Shown here: positions 1-45,328 of the stretch, in pieces
How positions within the stretch are numbered: the first letter of the stretch is position 1
Layout of the letters: every line of letters starts with the position of its first letter
From: Spiroplasma phoeniceum
GTDB lineage: Bacteria > Bacillota_I > Bacilli_A > Mycoplasmatales > Mycoplasmataceae
Length of the DNA: 64,000 nt
Direction of reading: 5' to 3'
Assembly (NCBI GenBank): GCA_026239495.1
Contig: CP110830.1
Span: 1,798,001-1,862,000, forward strand
The notes under the pieces: generated by a model
Databases searched by the model: none
What the model was told of the DNA's origin: nothing
What the model saw: only the letters and a program-made list of their open reading frames with translations
Translations under genes and position numbers: made by a program

Positions 1-895
1 CAATTAATTACTCAATTTACTGTTGTCCCCTTCCTGTTAGTGAGTATCCAACAATTTCATTACTAAATAAGTCTTTAATAGCAAATAAATATAATGATTC
101 TGAATATATTTTAATTATTGTAATATCAATTGATCATTTTTGATTAATTTGATTAGAATGAAAATTACGTTTAAGTAAATAGGGGTATTTTTTTATGTTC
201 ATATAACATATTATTAAAATGTTTAATTCGTTTTTTATGTTTAATTCTAACTTCAGAACATATTTGTAATATCTTCATATAACGATATACAGTACTTGCT
301 GATATTTTTATTTTTTTGTTCTTCCAAATCAATTTTTATTTGTCGATGACATTTATTTTTATTGTTTTTTCAAATTATTTTAATTATTTCTAATATATTG
401 TAATCAATTTTTCATTCATATTTTTCATGAATATTTTTATATTTATTTCATGTATCATATGAAATGCATAATATTTTTAAAAATCATCTTAATGGTAAGA
501 TTGAGTTGTTATTTAATTCGTTTTTAATAAAATAAATTTGTTTTCTAATATTCATCTTTGTTTTTGTTTTTGGAAAAGATTCAAGCTTTTTTAAAATATT
601 ATTTTCTGCTTTTATTTGTTCATTTTCTTTTTTTAATAAATATATATTTTCATCATGCGGATTATTAAAAATTGGCATTTTTTTAATATATGTTCGTTTA
701 TCAAATTTTTTATCTTTATTGAAAACATTAATTCACCTAGAAATAGTTGCAGTACTAATTTCATATTATTTAGATATTAAAGATATTGATTTATTATATT
801 AGTAATATTCGTTAATAATTTTAGTTTTAAATTCAATATCATAGTCTTTTGACCCTTTAGTTTCGCCCTTTCATTTGCCATATAAAAATGTTGGT
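1..895 (-). mobile_element. IS3-like element (family B), decayed, cut by window edge
   Basis: Minus-strand remnant of the same IS3-family element seen complete at 46136-47455. The 5' part of its transposase lies near 881, and the middle of orfB runs off the left edge. It is a pseudogene: the orfA frame is broken by a stop where the better copy encodes NEYYEY, and small insertions disrupt orfB. The 3' half with the last catalytic Glu is outside the window. The IS3 assignment comes from the full copies; family B is my own label. Confidence 0.75.
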
Positions 896-1141
896 TGTAT
901 GTATTATTTAAGGGTTTTAATTAATATCTTAGAAATTGTGGAATAAAAATACGACTTACTTATCTAAAGTATATAACTTTTAATTTTATTGTCAACAATA
1001 TTTTAACATTTTTTAAATTTTTCCACGACAAAAATACATGTTTATTAAAGTTATTTAATTTATTAGATAAAATTAATAAAAATATAAGTTTGACTCTAAA
1101 CTATTATTTACAAAATTATTAATTGAATAATTAACTCTATT
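896..1141. other. no gene seen (AT-rich spacer between mobile fragments)
   Basis: About 250 bp of very AT-rich DNA between the IS3-like remnant and the next fragment. I see no open frame with a start and ribosome binding site, no tRNA and no clear hairpin terminator. Confidence 0.5.
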
Positions 1142-1342
1142 TTATTCTAATGGTTCATTAGTATTAAATAAATTAATTTTATTTTTAAAATTCATCATAC
1201 TAGTATTTAATTTATTTTTAATATTTTTTTCATGATAAGTTGCTTTTTTAACCGAGACACCTTTACAGTAATGTGATATATCACCCTCAATATGACAACC
1301 AGTATTATTTCATAATGTTTGATTTTTGACGCCTTCTTCATT
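1142..1342 (-). pseudogene. C-terminal fragment of an unidentified, probably mobile-element protein
   Basis: An open minus-strand frame of about 66 codons without a start, cut at its upstream side by the IS at 1343. It contains motifs such as WNNTGCHIEGDISHYC, a Cys/His-bearing patch vaguely like the C-terminal part of UPF0236/ISLre2-type mollicute transposases. I do not recognise it with certainty. The matching 5' part is not on the other side of the IS, so the fragment was probably left by recombination between IS copies. Confidence 0.4.
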
Positions 1343-2412
1343 AGACTTCTTGCATAACCCATTAAAATAATTTCAAATATTTGTAAAAAGGGGTTAATAT
1401 AAAATTATAATTTTAATTAATTATGTCTTTTATTTAAAAATTTAATATTTTGCCACAACGAAAAATTATTTTATTATTCAAATTCGTTAATTTTAAATAA
1501 ATCTTTTATGATAACTATAATAATTGTAAATTATAAATTGAAGCAATTAAATTAAATCTTAAACTAAATCGTTTTCTACGATTTATATATTTTTCTGTAA
1601 TAATTTTAAATTTTTTAAGAATAGCAAAAATATTTTCAATAATAATTCTTATTTTTGAAACTAGTCTATTATGTTGTTTTTGTTCTTTATTTAAATGTTT
1701 TTTCTTAGTTTTCTTTGTGGGCATTATAACATTATTGTGAATTTTTTGTATTCCTTGATAACCACTATCAACTATTAATTTGGTATTTTTTAAAATTGCG
1801 ATTTTTGATTCTTTAAATAAAGCATAATCGTGTTTTTTACCAAGTGAAAAACTTGTTGCAATAATTTTTTTGGTTTCTTGTTCGATAATTACTTGTGTTT
1901 TAATAGTGTGTTTTTTCTTTTTACCAGAATAAGATTGTTTTTGTCTTTTTTTGGGCGTTGGATTGGGGTTTCGGTAGCATCAATAATAATAGTTTTATCA
2001 TTAAAATAATCATTTATTAGCGCTTTTTTACCAGCAAATTGCTGAAAATCAGGGTGTTTAATTAAAATATCTTCAATTCACTTGATATTGCGATAACAAT
2101 TAGCTTCACTAATTCCGAAATTTTTTCCAAGATGAAAATAAGTTCGATATTCTCGTCAATACGATAAAGTCATCAATAATCGATTTTCTAGTGATAATTT
2201 ATTAGCTTTGCCACCTTTTTTAAATTTTTCTATTTCAGCTACTTGTAAAATATCTAACATTTTATTAAAAATATCTTGTTTTATTCCTGTTAATCTTAAT
2301 CATTCTTTATCATTAATATTTTTAAATTCATCAAATTTCATAATTTAATATCCTCATAAATTATATTTTATAATAATATTTTAATAATAAAACCAGGTAT
2401 CGCAAGAAGTCT
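1343..2412 (-). mobile_element. IS5-like element, type I, apparently intact copy
   Basis: 1070-bp element with terminal inverted repeats AGACTTCTTGC / GCAAGAAGTCT. It carries a transposase in two overlapping frames. The flanking triplets are ATT on the left and AAT on the right, so no direct target duplication is left, unlike most copies here. Left and right flanks belong to unrelated broken genes, which suggests this copy is the product of recombination between two IS copies. Confidence 0.85.
1515..2341 (-). CDS. IS5-like type I transposase, orfA/orfB joined by -1 frameshift
   Basis: orfA begins MKFDEFKNINDKEW and holds an N-terminal helix-turn-helix-like region and the first catalytic Asp (IIIDATETPIQRP). 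The frame must slip by -1 on the run A AAA AAA just after the QRP codons to enter orfB. orfB carries the second Asp (LIVDSGYQG) and the Glu (KIRIIIENIFAIL), completing a DDE triad. Joined product is about 275 aa. No disabling change is visible, so it could be active. Some IS5-family subgroups are known to use such frameshifting; its use here is inferred from the conserved slippery run. Confidence 0.75.
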
Positions 2413-2413
2413 A

Positions 2414-2693
2414 ATAAATAAAGTTTTAAATTATTACATTAAATTAACTAATGAAAATATTACTAATCAAGATGAAAATTTTTCAAATAAAATTGCTTGT
2501 TTTGATGAACAAAAAAATTATTAAAATATTTTATCAACGATTATCACCATTAGAAAAAGAAGTATTTCGGTTATGATTTGCTGGTGAAAATATTTATAAT
2601 ATTCACCGCTTATTAGGGTTAAATTATCGGCAAGTTGATAATGCAATGCAACGAATTATGCAAAAAAAAAGATATTTTTACAAAAATAGTTAA
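2414..2693 (+). pseudogene. sigma-70-like factor, 3' remnant cut by IS and frameshifted
   Basis: The last 50 or so codons read LSPLEKEVFRLWFAGENIYN...LLGLNYRQVDNAMQRI, which looks like region 4.2 of a sigma-70-family factor (helix-turn-helix after a conserved LS.LE.EV). The frame shifts within an A-run near 2510-2516, and the 5' part is missing because the IS ends at 2412. In Bacillus-type genomes sigH lies just before rpmG-secE-nusG, so gene order supports a sigH-like origin. It cannot make a working sigma factor. Confidence 0.55.
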
Positions 2694-2746
2694 TTAAGTA
2701 TATGAATATTGTTATTAATATACTATAATTAATTATGGTGAATATT

Positions 2747-2896
2747 ATGCGCGAAAAGATTATATTAGTATGTTCAGAATGTTTAAATCGAAACTATACA
2801 ACATTTAAAAACAAAATGACACAAAAAGAACGATTAGAAATAAATAAGTTTTGTAAAACATGTAATAAACATAATAAACATAAAGAAACAAGGTAG
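2747..2896 (+). CDS. rpmG: 50S ribosomal protein L33
   Basis: 49-aa basic protein starting [12 protein letters not shown] with a second CKTC pair, the four-Cys zinc ribbon form of L33. It binds the large subunit near the E site. A TATAAT-like -10 sits just upstream (about 2723), so the rpmG-secE-nusG operon probably starts here, after the broken sigma gene. An in-frame ATG at 2735 could add four residues; the 2747 start matches the family better. Confidence 0.9.
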
Positions 2897-2907
2897 GGGT
2901 GCTTGCA

Positions 2908-3342
2908 ATGAAAAAAAATGAAAAATCAAAAAAGAATGTTAAAACTGTTTTAACAAAAGAAAAAAAAGCGTTAAAAATTCAAAAGAAAAATGAAAAAGCA
3001 GCGCTAATTTTTCAAAAAAAAGCAAGTAAAAAAGCACTAATTCAAGTTGGAACAAAAAAAGTAAGCACAACACCAGAGATTGATGAGAATGGTGAACCAA
3101 TTAAAAAAGGTCTTTTTAAGCTTAAAAATTCAAATAAAAGTAAAAAAACAAATTGAAAATTAGCTTTTCGTGAATTTCCTGTCAAAATGGCAAAAGAAGT
3201 CACGAGAATTCGATGAACAAGTAAGGTTAGCTTGGGACGCAAGTTTTTAATCACAATTTTATTTATTATTGCTTTTGCGTTGTTTTATTTAGTATTAGAT
3301 TTAGTTTTACATCATTTACTAACTGTTGCTCGCATTATATAA
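2908..3342 (+). CDS. secE: preprotein translocase subunit SecE
   Basis: 144 aa with one UGA-coded Trp. The first 90 or so residues are very rich in Lys and low in complexity, a mollicute-type extension. After it comes the SecE core: an amphipathic stretch (FREFPVKMAKEVTRIRW) and one membrane helix (FLITILFIIAFALFYLVLD). It clamps SecY in the membrane. It lies between rpmG and nusG, the classic order. A GTG at 2899 could start it three codons earlier; the ATG has the AGG/GGGG-like ribosome site at 2891-2899. Confidence 0.85.
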
Positions 3343-3371
3343 TAGATAATTAAAAGGAGTAAAGCAAGGTA

Positions 3372-4025
3372 ATGTTAGGAAAAAACACAATAAAAGATGA
3401 AATCATTGATAATGATAAAAGTAAAGACAGAGAAACTTTAGAAGACGCCACAAAGTATCCTGGAAAATGATATGTAATTAATTGTTATTCTGGACATGAA
3501 GATGGTGTTCGTGATGACTTAATTCAACGGGTAGAATCATTAAATATGAAAGATGTTGTTTTTGATATTAGAGTTGTAAAAGAGATAGCTTCAGCCAAAA
3601 AAGGTGGAAAACTAATAGAAAAAGAAAAAAATGCGTACCCAGGCTATATTTTTATTAATATGATTATGAACGATGAAGCTTGATACATTGTTCGGAACAC
3701 AACAGGGGTTACTGGATTTATTGGATCATCAGGGCGAGGAACAAAACCTTTTCCTTTAACAGATCAAGAAGCAAGGACAATGCTTTCAAAATCATTGACA
3801 GCTAAAAAAACAGCAACACAGCAAGGAAAAAAAGTTAAAAAAGTATTTGTGGCAAACTTTGAAGTGAATGATTATATTCAAATTTTATCAGGAACTTTTA
3901 CTGATATGGAAGGACAAGTAACAAAAATTGACACTTCAAAAGGGATTGCGATAGTAAATTTAGAAATGTTTGGTCGTTTGACACCTGCTGAAGTTGAATT
4001 TGACCAATGTAAAAAAATTGGTTAG
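3372..4025 (+). CDS. nusG: transcription termination/antitermination factor NusG
   Basis: 217 aa. Residues about 35-130 form the NGN domain that binds RNA polymerase (WYVINCYSGHEDGVRDDL, AYPGYIFINM, VRNTTGVTGFIG). The C-terminal KOW motif (NDYIQILSGTFTDMEGQV) contacts partners such as the ribosome. A 30-residue charged N-terminal extension precedes the usual start. The ribosome site is AAGG just before ATG. Last gene of the rpmG-secE-nusG operon and followed by a weak terminator. Confidence 0.95.
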
Positions 4026-4030
4026 GTTAG

Positions 4031-4067
4031 AGCATAGCAAATTAATATTAATTTTTTTTATGCTTTT
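4031..4067 (+). terminator. weak intrinsic terminator after nusG
   Basis: AGCATA pairs with TATGCT across an AT-rich loop and is followed by a run of seven T. The stem is only 6 bp, so termination may be partial. Confidence 0.45.
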
Positions 4068-4073
4068 TTTAAA

Positions 4074-4667
4074 ATGATAAATGTGAACCGTTTAACTGAG
4101 GACACCTTTTTTATGCGAAATGCTGCTATTGTTGCGCGCGAACTATTAGGAAAATATTTAGTTCGAATTATTGCTGGGAAAAAAATTATTTGTAAAATTA
4201 TTGAAACTGAAGCTTATGATGGACCCGAAGATGATGCTAATCATGGTTTTAACAATAAACGTAGTTCTCGTAATAAAACACTTTTTTGGAAAGGTGGCTT
4301 TGCACATGTTTTTCTCATTTATGGGATGTATCATTGTTTTAATATTGTTACTGACCAAGTTGATTTTCCAAGTGCAGTTTTATTACGCGCTGGTGAAATT
4401 ATTATTGATGAAACTGTTCCCGACTTTGTTTCAACACCACGGCTAGCAAATGGCCCTGGAAAGTTATCGCTCTATTTAAAAATTACTAAAGCTGATGATG
4501 GACTTTCGCTGCTAGAAAGTGAAGTTTTATATCTTGCCGAAGATATAGTACCAACTGCAATTGAAATTACAACTACACCACGGGTCAACATTGAGTATGC
4601 AACAAATTTTAAATTAAAACCATATCGATTTTATATTACAGATCATAAAGCAGTTTCGAAAAAATAA
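4074..4667 (+). CDS. mpg: DNA-3-methyladenine glycosylase (AAG/MPG family)
   Basis: 197 aa, the usual size. It removes alkylated purines to start base-excision repair. The catalytic Glu is visible in IIETEAYDGPEDDANH, followed by the family motifs RNKTLFWKGGFAHVFLIYG and MYHCFNIV and the late RLANGPGKL motif. Only 48 bp from nusG, with no good ribosome site visible, so the start is less certain than the identity. UGG codons are used for Trp here. Confidence 0.9.
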   Translation: MINVNRLTEDTFFMRNAAIVARELLGKYLVRIIAGKKIICKIIETEAYDGPEDDANHGFNNKRSSRNKTLFWKGGFAHVFLIYGMYHCFNIVTDQVDFPSAVLLRAGEIIIDETVPDFVSTPRLANGPGKLSLYLKITKADDGLSLLESEVLYLAEDIVPTAIEITTTPRVNIEYATNFKLKPYRFYITDHKAVSKK

Positions 4668-29844: not shown

Positions 29845-30196
29845 ACATATTTTTTAAGAATTTTATGTATTTAATATGAATTACTAATTGATAAATTTAA
29901 ATGATTTTAGGAAATGTTTATATAATTTAAAATATAGTTTTAGTAACTTTAATTTTGTTAAAGAAAAAGTGGATTGGTAGATTAATTGATATAATAATGA
30001 ACAAATTTTTCTAAAATATCAAATATCTCCTATAAATGCACGAAGTTTATGATAAAATAATATAAAATTTAAAAACTTTAAAAAAGTGAACTTATATGGG
30101 TAGATACATAAGTATTGTTTTTACAATTTAAATGTAAATTTTATTGGTATATTTTACTTTTTTTGTTACAATTAATACAATTTAATACTTACAATA
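29845..30196. other. no gene seen; leader and promoter region of guaB
   Basis: About 350 bp of AT-rich non-coding DNA. A possible promoter lies just before the riboswitch (TTGTTA with TACAAT/TTTAAT near 30160-30185). No tRNA or other RNA gene was recognised. Confidence 0.4.
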
Positions 30197-30263
30197 ATCC
30201 TATATATACTAGAAATATGGTCTAGTGTCTCTACAGTTAACCTTAAATTAAACACTATAGGTC
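30197..30263 (+). promoter_or_regulatory. purine riboswitch aptamer, guanine type
   Basis: P1 CCTATA/TATAGG encloses J1/2 TATA, P2 CTAG/CTAG around an ATATGG loop, J2/3 GTCTCTAC, and P3 with loop CCTTAAA. This order matches the purine riboswitch; loops L2 (GG) and L3 (CC) can make the kissing pairs. The specificity base in J3/1 (aCTATA) is C, so guanine or hypoxanthine, not adenine, is predicted. It lies 100 bp before guaB, a known guanine-riboswitch target. P3 is short and weak. Confidence 0.75.
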
Positions 30264-30289
30264 TTAATTTATTTTTAATTTGTTAAGAC
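30261..30289 (+). terminator. possible riboswitch expression-platform hairpin
   Basis: GTCTTAA pairs with TTAAGAC right after the aptamer and shares its first G with P1, so the two could compete. The T-tract after it is interrupted (tgtttgttaattggtttt), so termination is unsure. Confidence 0.4.
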
Positions 30290-41486: not shown

Positions 41487-41517
41487 AGAGTTTTTTTATT
41501 TCAAATAAAAAAACTCT
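41487..41517. terminator. hairpin terminator in virus-like cassette
   Basis: AGAGTTTTTTTATTT / AAATAAAAAAACTCT, nearly loop-less on paper, 12 bp before the small Cys/His ORF. It separates that ORF from upstream DNA. Confidence 0.7.
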
Positions 41518-41528
41518 AAAAGGAGGTA

Positions 41529-41699
41529 ATGATAATTAAAAAACAAAAAATTTGTGATGTTAATGATTGTTATAAAGAAACATCATTCATTACCAAAGAA
41601 TTTTTATCAAATAAAGTTTTATGAACTTGTGAAAAACATAAAGATTTATTAAATCGTACAAAAGATAAAAAAAACAAAAGTGGTTTTATAAACTCTTAG
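41529..41699 (+). CDS. small Cys/His protein (zinc-finger-like), virus-like cassette, copy 1
   Basis: 56 aa after an ideal AAGGAGG site. It reads MIIKKQKICDVNDCYKETSF...VLWTCEKHKDLLN...SGFINS. The C-x4-C and C-x2-H spacing could hold one metal ion. One UGA Trp. A second, decayed copy lies at 43153. The repeated cassette looks like Spiroplasma virus DNA, so a viral DNA-binding or regulatory role is possible, but no homologue is named with certainty. Confidence 0.6.
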
Positions 41700-41793
41700 A
41701 AAATTCAAAAATTATCTTTGATTGAGAAACTGGGTTTTTAAAACTTAAATTTTATAAAACAACTTAATGCAGTGCGGGGCGTTTATTTTAAAT

Positions 41794-42911
41794 AGACTTC
41801 TTGCGCAACCTATTAAAAAATTGCAAATATTTGTAAAAAGACACTAATAGAAAAATATAACTTTAATTAATTATGTTTTTTATTTAAAAATTTAATATTT
41901 TGCTACAACAAAAAATGAATTTATTATTTAAATTCTTTAATTTTAAATAAATCTTCTATGCTAACTGCAAATTATAAATTGAAGCAATTAAATTAAATCT
42001 TAAACCAAATCGTTTTCTTCGATTACGATATTTTTTTGTAATAATTTTAAATTTTTGATAACATTACAAAAGTTGAGGTTTTATAAAAAATATAAATAAA
42101 ATAATTGGATAAATTTTTAAAAATCGTGATTTATTAGTGTTTTAAATTCATCAATAATAGTAAAAAAATAATTTTTATACCAAAGCCTCAGCCCTTTTTC
42201 TTACCACCAAATTTTTTAAGAATAGCAAAAATATTTTCAATAATAATTCTCATTTTTGAAACTATTCTATTGCGTTGTTTTTGTACTTTATTTAAAGGGT
42301 TTTTCTTTGTTTTTTTAGGTATTATAACATTATTGTGATTTTTTTTGAATTCCTTGATAACCACTATCAACTATTAATTTGGTATTTTTTAAAATTAAGA
42401 TTTTTGATTCTTTAAATAAAGCATAATCATGTTTTTTTCCAAACGAAAAACTTGTTGCAATAATTTTTTTGATTTCTTGTTCGATAATTACTTGTGTTTT
42501 AATGGTGTGTTTTTTCTTTTTACCAGAATAAGATTGTTTTTGTCTTTTTTTGGGCGCTGGATTGGGGTTTAGGTAACATCAATAATAATAGTTTTATTAT
42601 TAAAATAATCATTTATTAGTGATTTTTTACCAGCGAGTTGTTGAAAATCAGAGTGTTTAATTAAAATATCTTCAATTCACTTGATATTGCGATAACAACT
42701 ATATTCACTAATATCAAAACTTTTAGCAAGATGAAAATAAGTACGATATTCTCATCAATACGATAAAATAATCAGTAGCCGATTTTCTAGTGATAATTTA
42801 TTATTTTTGCCGCCTTTTTTAAATTTTTCTATTTCAGCTACTTGTAAAATATTTAACATTCTACTAAAAGTAGCTTTTTTGCTCCGGTTAATAGCAATAA
42901 TTCTTTATCAT
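41794..42911 (-). mobile_element. IS5-like type II element, interrupted and truncated
   Basis: Starts AGACTTCTTGC at 41794 and can be followed through orfB and orfA, but it ends at 42911 inside the start of orfA (no right terminal repeat). A 152-bp foreign piece sits within orfB. Many substitutions (for example TTAG in place of TTCG near 42569) show it is old. Inactive. Confidence 0.75.
42057..42208. mobile_element. MITE-like 152-bp insertion with 8-bp target duplication
   Basis: The type II IS sequence is broken here by 152 bp with no coding capacity. AAATTTTT is present on both sides (42049-42056 and 42209-42216), but the uninterrupted copies have it once, so it is an 8-bp duplication. The ends are imperfect inverted repeats sharing AAAAG..TGAGG..TTTTATA-like blocks (GATAACATTACAAAAGTTGA against GGTGGTAAGAAAAAGGGCTG). 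This is the form of a miniature inverted-repeat element moved by a transposase that makes 8-bp duplications. Confidence 0.65.
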
Positions 42912-42944: not shown

Positions 42945-42975
42945 CTTGTTAAATAAAAAGGGTTGTTTTTTTATT
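42945..42975 (+). terminator. hairpin terminator in second virus-like cassette
   Basis: AAACAACTCTT... pairs with AGGGTTGTTT and is followed by a T-run. It holds the same place relative to the TATAATGTACGATGAA repeat as the hairpin at 41487. Confidence 0.7.
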
Positions 42976-43152
42976 TGTAAACCCATAATTATTAATTGAT
43001 TCAGAGAAAGGGCATTATCTTAAATTCTTAAAATAGAAACTTTTTATTACAACTTTTGTTTTTCTCCCAATTTAAGGTGTTGTCTTTCCTCTGTTTCGGT
43101 TAATTAATTTGGCTAATAAATAAAAAAATAATATCAAAGAAAGGAATGAGTA

Positions 43153-43302
43153 ATGAAAATTAATAAGCAACAAAAAATATGTGATGTTAATGATTGCTAT
43201 AAATCAATATCATTCATTAACTAAGAATTTTTATCAAATAAATTTTTATGAACTTGTGAAAAACATATAGATTTATTAAATAATACAAAAGATAAAAAAT
43301 AA
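43153..43302 (+). pseudogene. small Cys/His protein, copy 2, decayed
   Basis: Second copy of the 41529 gene: MKINKQQKICDVNDCYKSISFIN, then a TAA, then EFLSNKFLWTCEKHIDLLNN and another TAA. The DNA is clearly homologous for about 250 bp, including the non-coding stretch after the gene. The first stop removes the second metal pair, so it is non-functional. AAAGGAATG ribosome site remains. Confidence 0.7.
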
Positions 43303-43430
43303 AAGCGGTTTTATAAATTCTTATAAAATTCAAAAATTATATTTGATTATGAAGCTGGTTCTTTAAAACTTTGATTTTACAAAACAATTTAATGCAGTGT
43401 GGGACGGTTATTTTAAATAACTAAGTGTTT

Positions 43431-43893
43431 TTATTCCACGCGAGGCGGTCTAACCCAGCGGTAATCAGCCCGGAAATAATAGACGATTTAATAAGCGATA
43501 GTCGTGATAAGTGCGAGGTCAACACCGAACGACAATAAATATTGAGATGGACACTTTATAAATAAATTTGCTATAGATATTACTTCTTAGAAGTGGCAGC
43601 GGTTTAAAAACCACAAAGTCAGCATTAGGCTATTCAATGTGCAAGTAAATTTATTTTAAAAACTGAACGTTTTGACCTGAAATGGCGCGGATGAAGAGAT
43701 AGGAAGTTCTCTAGCCCTACCTTATAAAAACAACTGTCTATTATTTAATAATAAACAAATATTAAATATATTATCGCCACTGTTCACCCCCAGTGAAGCG
43801 GATGGCGCAGTAAATAAATAGATAAATAATTATATAACTAATTCTCACTTTGTCACTTCCACTTGGGAGTTAGTGCCAGCGAGTTAAAAAATA
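43431..43893. ncRNA. GC-rich structured non-coding region, unidentified
   Basis: About 460 bp with visibly more G+C than the rest of the window, no open frame in any direction worth naming, and many short stems: GTCTA..TAGAC, ACTTC(TTA)GAAGT, GGTTT(AA)AAACC, TAGG..CCTA, CACTG(TTCACCCC)CAGTG inside CGCCA..TGGCG, and ACTTCC(ACTT)GGGAGT. It lies right after the second virus-like cassette and before two small ORFs. This could be a large structured RNA or a viral origin/intergenic region. tmRNA, RNase P and group II intron motifs were not found. Strand is unsettled; neighbours read on plus. Confidence 0.4.
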
Positions 43894-43935
43894 AAATTAG
43901 AATAATTAATAAATTAATTTAACGGAATGATATAT

Positions 43936-44061
43936 ATGAGAAATAAAAAGTTAAATAAATACATAATTAATAAATTAAATCAATTAATGCTTATAAGTTA
44001 TATAGTATCATTTGATGATATTACGGATGAACATTGGGCGTTAAATACTAAAAAGAATTAG
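43936..44061 (+). CDS. hypothetical small ORF, 41 aa, virus-like
   Basis: MRNKKLNKYIINKLNQLMLISY to EHWALNTKKN. Basic N-terminal half. Weak ribosome site (GGAATGATAT). Followed 12 bp later by another small ORF with a good AGGAG site, so the two may be cotranscribed. No known function; the setting suggests viral origin. Confidence 0.4.
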   Translation: MRNKKLNKYIINKLNQLMLISYIVSFDDITDEHWALNTKKN

Positions 44062-44073
44062 GAGAAATAAATT

Positions 44074-44252
44074 ATGAATAAAAGATATCTATTAGTAATG
44101 AAAAGTAAATATAGTGATTTCAAAACAAACTTCTTTTATACATTAGAAGAAGCAAAATTACTGCTAATGTTGAAAATCAACAAGAATGATTGACAACTAT
44201 TATTGATTTAGAAAATAAAAATATTAAATGACAAAGAAAAGGAGTTAAATAA
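44074..44252 (+). pseudogene. small ORF, frameshifted, virus-like
   Basis: Starts MNKRYLLVMKSKYSDFKTNFFYTLEEAK after AGGAG. A one-base loss near 44164 sends it to an early stop. In the other frame it goes on as NVENQQEWLTTIIDLENKNIKWQRKGVK and ends 2 bp before the IS at 44254. UGA Trp in the second part supports former coding. Function unknown. Confidence 0.45.
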
Positions 44253-44253
44253 T

Positions 44254-45328
44254 AGACTTCTTGCATAACCTAATTTAATTATTTTAAAATTCCTATAAAA
44301 TATTTTTAAATTAAAATAGAAATTATAGGAAATTAAAATTATGAAATTTGATAAATTTAATTTTATTAATGATAAAGAATTATTGCGATTAACCGGAGCA
44401 AAAAAGCTACTTTTAATAAAATGTTAAATATTTTACAAGTAGCTGAAATAGAAAAATTTAAAAAAGGTGGCAAAACTAATAAATTATCACTAGAAAATCG
44501 GCTACTGATAGCTTTATCGTATTGACGATAATATCGGACTTATTTTCATCTTGCTAAAAATTTTGATATTAGTGAATCTAGTTGTTATCGCAATATCAAG
44601 TGAATTGAAGATATTTTAATTAAACACTCTGATTTTCAACAACTCGCTGGCAAAAAATCACTAATAAACGATTATTTTAATGATAAAAATATTATTATTG
44701 ATGTTACCGAAACCCCAATCCAACTCCCAAAAAAAGCAAAAACAATCTTATTCTGGTAAAAAGAAAAAACACACCACTAAAACACAAGTAATTATCGAAA
44801 AAGAAACCAAAAAAAATTATTGCAACAAGTTTTTCGCTTGGAAAAAAACATGATTATGCTTTATTTAAAGAATCAAAAATCTCAATTTTAAAAAATAACA
44901 AATTAATAGTTGATAGTGGTTATCAAGGAATTCAAAAAATTCACAATAATGTTCTAATACCTACAAAAAAAACAAAGAAAAACCCTTTAAATAAAGTACA
45001 AAAACAACGTAATAGAATAGTTTAAAAAATGAGAATTATTATTGAAAATATTTTTGCTATTCTTAAAAAATTTAAAATTATTACAGAAAAATATCGTAAT
45101 CGAAGAAAACGATTTAGTTTAAGATTTAATTTAATTGCTTCAATTTATAATTTGCAGCTAGCATAGAAGATTTATTTAAAATTAAAGAATTTAAATAATA
45201 AATTCATTTTTTGTTGTGGCAAAATATTAAATTTTTAAATAAAAAACATAATTAATTAAAATTATATTTTTCTATTAGTGTCTTTTTACAAATATTTGCA
45301 ATTTTTTAATAGGTTACGCAAGAAGTCT
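44254..45328 (+). mobile_element. IS5-like type II element, defective
   Basis: 1075 bp with AGACTTCTTGC / GCAAGAAGTCT ends and AAT on both sides. orfA and orfB have several frame breaks and a stop in the last catalytic region (after RNRIV). The AAT match could be a true target duplication, but the right flank is the middle of a type I IS and the left flank is not, so a second event must have removed the left half of that IS. Confidence 0.75.

Follow-up and report, generated by a model that had tools for sequence, protein, structure and literature searches.

A predicted pseudoknotted RNA upstream of the early genes of Spiroplasma phages related to MaM-2019a

What is encoded by a G+C-rich block that stands out from the AT-rich, virus-like DNA around it in a Spiroplasma chromosome? 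The block lies at positions 43431-43893 of the window, by which we mean the whole stretch of Spiroplasma phoeniceum DNA analyzed (64,000 nucleotides). A preliminary description of these letters proposed a non-coding, stem-rich RNA of viral or plasmid origin, possibly of the ROOL or GOLLD class.

Composition, coding potential and phage origin of the block

The G+C content of the block is 0.359, versus 0.240 in the 1 kb upstream and 0.219 in the 1 kb downstream, and the block is the most G+C-rich 463-nt stretch within 38-48 kb. The contrast with its surroundings that drew attention to this region is therefore real. Over the whole 64-kb window the value reaches the 96th percentile only, and coding regions have G+C contents of up to 0.40.

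No reading frame is conserved in any of the six frames across 58 full-length copies of the block. The longest open run has a median length of 39-54 codons in each frame, and the indel lengths among these copies are not multiples of three. These results rule out a coding function on either strand and agree with the non-coding character claimed from the single sequence.

The claim that the block is rich in stems does not hold when it is judged by folding energy alone, since this energy is at the level expected by chance (z of -0.30 relative to dinucleotide shuffles, 35 of 100 of which fold equally well). Stems seen in a single sequence therefore prove little, and comparative evidence is needed. 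When copies are compared the claim does hold, because the stems covary. As judged from covariation and phage homologs, the block is a structured, non-coding RNA of viral derivation, as the preliminary description had supposed, and it corresponds neither to a coding region nor to a piece of rRNA or tRNA.

Its source chromosome of 2.18 Mb holds about 28 copies of the block. Among 14 Spiroplasma genomes, nine carry it by BLAST and eight by covariance model; the block was found in none of 306 further genomes of the order, and searches for the core in other genera of the order found none. A search of viral contigs with the exact core pattern returned one single matching contig. Carriers include S. 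poulsonii MSRO_BK, S. phoeniceum P40, and S. citri plasmids, among them a 22 kb phage-like circle. The block is also present in three records of Spiroplasma phage MaM-2019a, a tailed dsDNA phage of ~19 kb. These phages have genes for terminase, portal, and capsid proteins, with genes for RecT or ERF, SSB, RecB-like, and RuvC proteins beside the block. The phage terminase and RuvC genes have nearly the same distribution among genomes as the RNA, and one genome (G006) carries the RNA without a RuvC match.

By homology, the block is assigned to tailed dsDNA phages related to MaM-2019a. The plectrovirus origin that had been suggested was rejected, as MaM-2019a records were the only matches in the phage collection and no Spiroplasma plectrovirus record was among them. 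S. citri plasmids do match, and the matching stretches are phage-like DNA.

Searched against all Rfam models, the block fits no catalogued family. At gathering threshold, ROOL, GOLLD, OLE, and HEARO have no match in the window, and permissive searches (up to an E-value of 10 for the block and of 5 for six divergent copies) gave chance matches only. ROOL and GOLLD RNAs often adjoin tRNA genes (PMC12286853), and ARAGORN, run on two phage records and a phage-like plasmid, found no tRNA genes. Membership in the ROOL or GOLLD class, as modeled in Rfam, was rejected on both grounds, the missing covariance-model match and the missing tRNA neighbors. The Spiroplasma RNA resembles members of these classes in that it is large, non-coding, borne by phages or prophages, and built with multiple pseudoknots. 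In contrast, it is smaller (300-500 nt in all; GOLLD RNAs are larger [PMC12286853]) and is located directly before early genes. No paper describing the Spiroplasma phage RNA was found in a literature search whose scope lay outside subscription journals.

Architecture of the RNA

The conserved element occupies positions 43395-43890 on the + strand, with limits set by homology in alignments, and is composed of a 5' domain, a core, an optional insert, and a 3' domain. The block had been delimited nearly correctly, since the conserved unit ends near 43890 and its 5' limit falls at about 43395-43440. An automatic consensus fold of the mixed alignment was unusable because it combined 5' modules of two kinds, A and B, that share no homology. 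Alignment was then restricted to the core (60 distinct sequences), and the helices were drawn by hand. The resulting model has eight helices, 41 pairs, and two pseudoknots within a length of ~180-225 nt.

All features of the window copy are read on the + strand. P1 joins 43501-43505 to 43529-43533 (GTCGT/ACGAC, or GTGGT/ACCAC in relatives) and is backed by covariation counts. It is crossed by P2 (43509-43513 with 43552-43556), which occurs as AAGTG/CACTT, AAGTC/GACTT, or GTGTC/GACAC, to form pseudoknot 1. P3 (43523-43526 with 43546-43549; CATC/GATG or TATC/GATA) likewise crosses P1 and has one mismatch in the window copy. The 11 base pairs of P4 (43561-43571 with 43645-43655) enclose P5 (43622-43625 with 43639-43642; GCAT/GTGC). 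The P5 loop and a strand farther downstream together form P6 (43630-43635 with 43693-43698). P6 crosses both P4 and P5 to make pseudoknot 2. It also has one mismatch in the window copy, and its variants are CTCTTC/GAAGAG, CCTTC/GAAGG, CCTTT/AAAGG, and TCTCTC/GAGAGA. The P7/P7b hairpin at 43668-43689 (P7, 43668-43670 with 43687-43689; P7b, 43675-43677 with 43684-43686) precedes a terminal core hairpin at 43697-43715, which in the alignments varies in sequence and directly precedes GC (in the majority of copies, CTGGC). Of the 41 core pairs, three are lost in the window copy.

Pairing is maintained in 95.9% of 1188 cells among 29 distinct copies, in the same alignment that was used for drawing the structure and for most pairing counts. 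Double-change cells number 75, compared with 25 in column shuffles and with 2-11 in controls with a slid partner. A tree of 60 copies shows 25 compensatory branch events versus 2.1 ± 1.4 under a null model that keeps the tree and approximates the column rates (maximum of 7 in 300 runs), whereas pair-breaking changes number 80 versus 126 expected. A stricter covariation test over all column pairs against a tree null, which has low power, gave an E-value of only 0.053 for its best pair, located in P3. An independent check is provided by the divergent G006 copy, which was read after the structure had been drawn and played no part in drawing it. This copy retains P1-P6: P1, P2, and P3 are kept, P4 has another sequence that still pairs (AAATATTTATGC/GCATGAGTATTT), P5 is changed, and P6 is longer (CTCTTTC/GAAAGAG). 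At the level of sequence comparison, the two crossing helix pairs of the core are shown to be under selection for pairing. The G-U pairs outnumber A-C mismatches by 158 to 44, which indicates that the RNA corresponds to the + strand.

Around this core, the element is modular. Depending on the copy, the 5' domain is of type A, as in the window (43440-43486), or of an unrelated type B. The insert between P4 and P5 (43572-43620 in the window copy, with hairpins) is missing from many aligned copies, and the 3' domain of two hairpins is optional as well. Hairpin I, at 43775-43807, is the nested stem CACTG..CAGTG inside CGCCA..TGGCG that had been named earlier, and it recurs in relatives; its pairs are kept in 90% of cells with few compensations. 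Hairpin II, at 43844-43883, keeps its pairs in 91.6% of cells, again with few compensations, and in intact copies it is positioned directly 5' of the ribosome-binding site. Both hairpins are conserved, and covariation gives no proof that they pair. The stem named in the preliminary description is real. Most of the stems noticed there belong to this optional domain, and the pseudoknotted core, which has the best support, had gone undescribed. A core that stays constant while entire modules are swapped around it is consistent with recombination among phages.

The RNA and the early operon

The element is located near the left end of the prophage and is followed by RecT/RuvC genes. This fixed position upstream of the early genes is seen in the phages and in 59 copies, which suggests that the RNA and these genes are co-transcribed. 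In most cases, 48-202 nt separate the RNA from the gene that opens the early recombination operon. From the core to the first Shine-Dalgarno sequence with an open reading frame, the distance is 162-202 nt in copies with the 3' domain; where this domain is absent, it is 48-86 nt for most copies. Immediately 5' of the RNA, core-only copies have, by eye, an AT-rich stretch resembling a promoter and a terminator-like hairpin; a scan for promoter consensus sites gave fewer hits than in shuffles. Within 260 nt after the core, a terminator-like hairpin is present in two of the 59 copies, and no + strand terminator-like site was found in positions 60-4500 of OL689226, which include its early operon. 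At least six small families, unrelated to one another, supply the first gene behind the RNA (loci L001-L075), and this position is possibly a hypervariable early or anti-defense locus. Zinc-ribbon-like proteins (YWGYCFKC) are among the products of these exchanged genes.

The best explanation, to which we give about an even chance, is that this conserved RNA of MaM-2019a-like phages forms the start of the early transcript and is a cis-acting leader of the early operon. Its most likely function is control of this operon. If this hypothesis is true, then early transcription of the + strand would begin with the RNA, which would fold while emerging from RNA polymerase. The leader could then control the operon as a whole, with elongation or readthrough, stability, and access as candidate modes. 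Operon-wide action is favored over action on a single gene because the adjoining gene is swapped while the RNA stays. The scarcity of terminators downstream would leave antitermination without an obvious target, which argues against the simplest antitermination model. Counting against a leader role, a distantly related prophage in genome G005 (terminase 48% identical) keeps its early operon without the RNA.

HK022 put RNA is an antiterminator in a phage early leader (PMC9378689). By analogy, put may be the nearest functional parallel, although not a relative: put is a structured RNA of a phage early transcript that acts on the whole early operon, as the Spiroplasma RNA would do. The put RNA is much smaller and consists of simple stem-loops, whereas the Spiroplasma core has ~180-225 nt and two pseudoknots, and downstream terminators were not found. 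A more far-reaching proposal, which we put forward tentatively, is that this is a new large RNA class restricted to Spiroplasma phages, in which the double-pseudoknot core alone runs the whole early program, whichever early genes follow. Such a self-acting core might exert its effect on RNA polymerase, prime replication, or serve as a scaffold.

The same large pseudoknotted core, with swappable peripheral modules and independence from the downstream gene, would also suit a free-standing phage RNA that is processed from the early transcript and acts in trans as a scaffold, cage, or sponge-like molecule, roles that are also suspected for ROOL and GOLLD. ROOL and GOLLD RNAs are likewise phage-borne (PMC12286853). 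We regard this proposal as doubtful, given that there is no Rfam match, that tRNA genes are absent from the phages tested, that hardly any copy has a terminator behind the RNA, and that the first gene follows closely. It is unlikely that the transcript primes replication or forms an R-loop at the phage origin, in the manner of ColE1 RNA II or T4 origins. The phage has no recognizable initiator or polymerase, and the RNA heads an operon with RecT/ERF, SSB, and RuvC genes, just as RNA II is a long structured transcript heading the replication region of its replicon. However, DnaA boxes number eight versus 7.2 expected, with none near the RNA, and a search for iterons near the RNA found none. No primer site, antisense counterpart of RNA I, or evidence of an R-loop was found in the phage, where the searches covered DnaA boxes and iterons.

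Control of the first gene alone, by a riboswitch-like or autoregulatory leader that senses a ligand or protein, would explain why variable hairpins follow the core near the Shine-Dalgarno sequence, where they could serve as an expression platform. That first gene switches between unrelated families, no anti-Shine-Dalgarno pairing was found by eye, and no known aptamer matches, so we consider this quite improbable. Far less probable still is a purely DNA-level element (an attachment, packaging, or recombination site) in which pairing is incidental. Nearness to the prophage end and strong modular recombination would be expected of such a site, but the junction for attachment lies ~570 nt from the element, where inverted repeats abut, and the excess of G-U over A-C together with the compensatory changes points to an RNA made from one strand.

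In the deposited phage genome, positions 984-1163 of OL689226 (L031), annotated as a coding sequence for a 59-amino-acid hypothetical protein, overlap the RNA. This annotation is probably spurious because the frame is not conserved in other copies. A conserved RNA absent from Rfam has been hidden beneath it, and the little-studied Spiroplasma phages gain a well-delimited molecular feature open to probing. Its numerous natural variants, in which modules are swapped, provide a ready mutational series. If the RNA alone does control the early operon, then it would be a large, pseudoknotted addition to the few phage RNAs of this kind.

The prophage and its window copy

The S. poulsonii MSRO_BK copies start at one phage position, a terminal inverted repeat ~570 nt upstream of the RNA. 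In the circular phage genome (OL689226, L031, 97-153), two imperfect inverted repeats of 27 nt abut with a spacing of 3 nt. Prophage copies in S. poulsonii MSRO_BK end at these repeats (12 left and 13 right ends) at many different sites, and a UPF0236 or IS30-type transposase lies beside the phage repeats. The inverted-repeat ends at many sites and the adjoining transposase suggest transposon-like integration of the phage.

In the window, a MaM-2019a-like prophage is represented by a remnant of its left end at 42965-44253 on the + strand, as determined by alignment to OL689226; 97% of positions 42950-44270 align, at 81.8% identity. From ~42965 the order is an interrupted small open reading frame with a Cys/His motif (43153-43394, + strand), the RNA, and broken small open reading frames, until DNA resembling an insertion sequence cuts the copy at ~44253. 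The Cys/His frame, a homolog of OL689226 (L031) 454-693, has ~79 amino acids where it is intact in phages and an early stop in the window copy. On this alignment the window copy is what remains of a decaying prophage, and it probably no longer works as a leader.

The duplicated Cys/His cassette reported earlier does exist as two adjoining copies, and these are phage left ends with an insertion sequence between them. The flanking copies, at 41500-41794 and 43080-43394, each include the Cys/His frame and the start of the RNA, and the copy on the left breaks off inside the RNA's first hairpin. Elsewhere in the window, a purine riboswitch aptamer is present at 30180-30277 on the + strand (Rfam RF00167, 52 bits).
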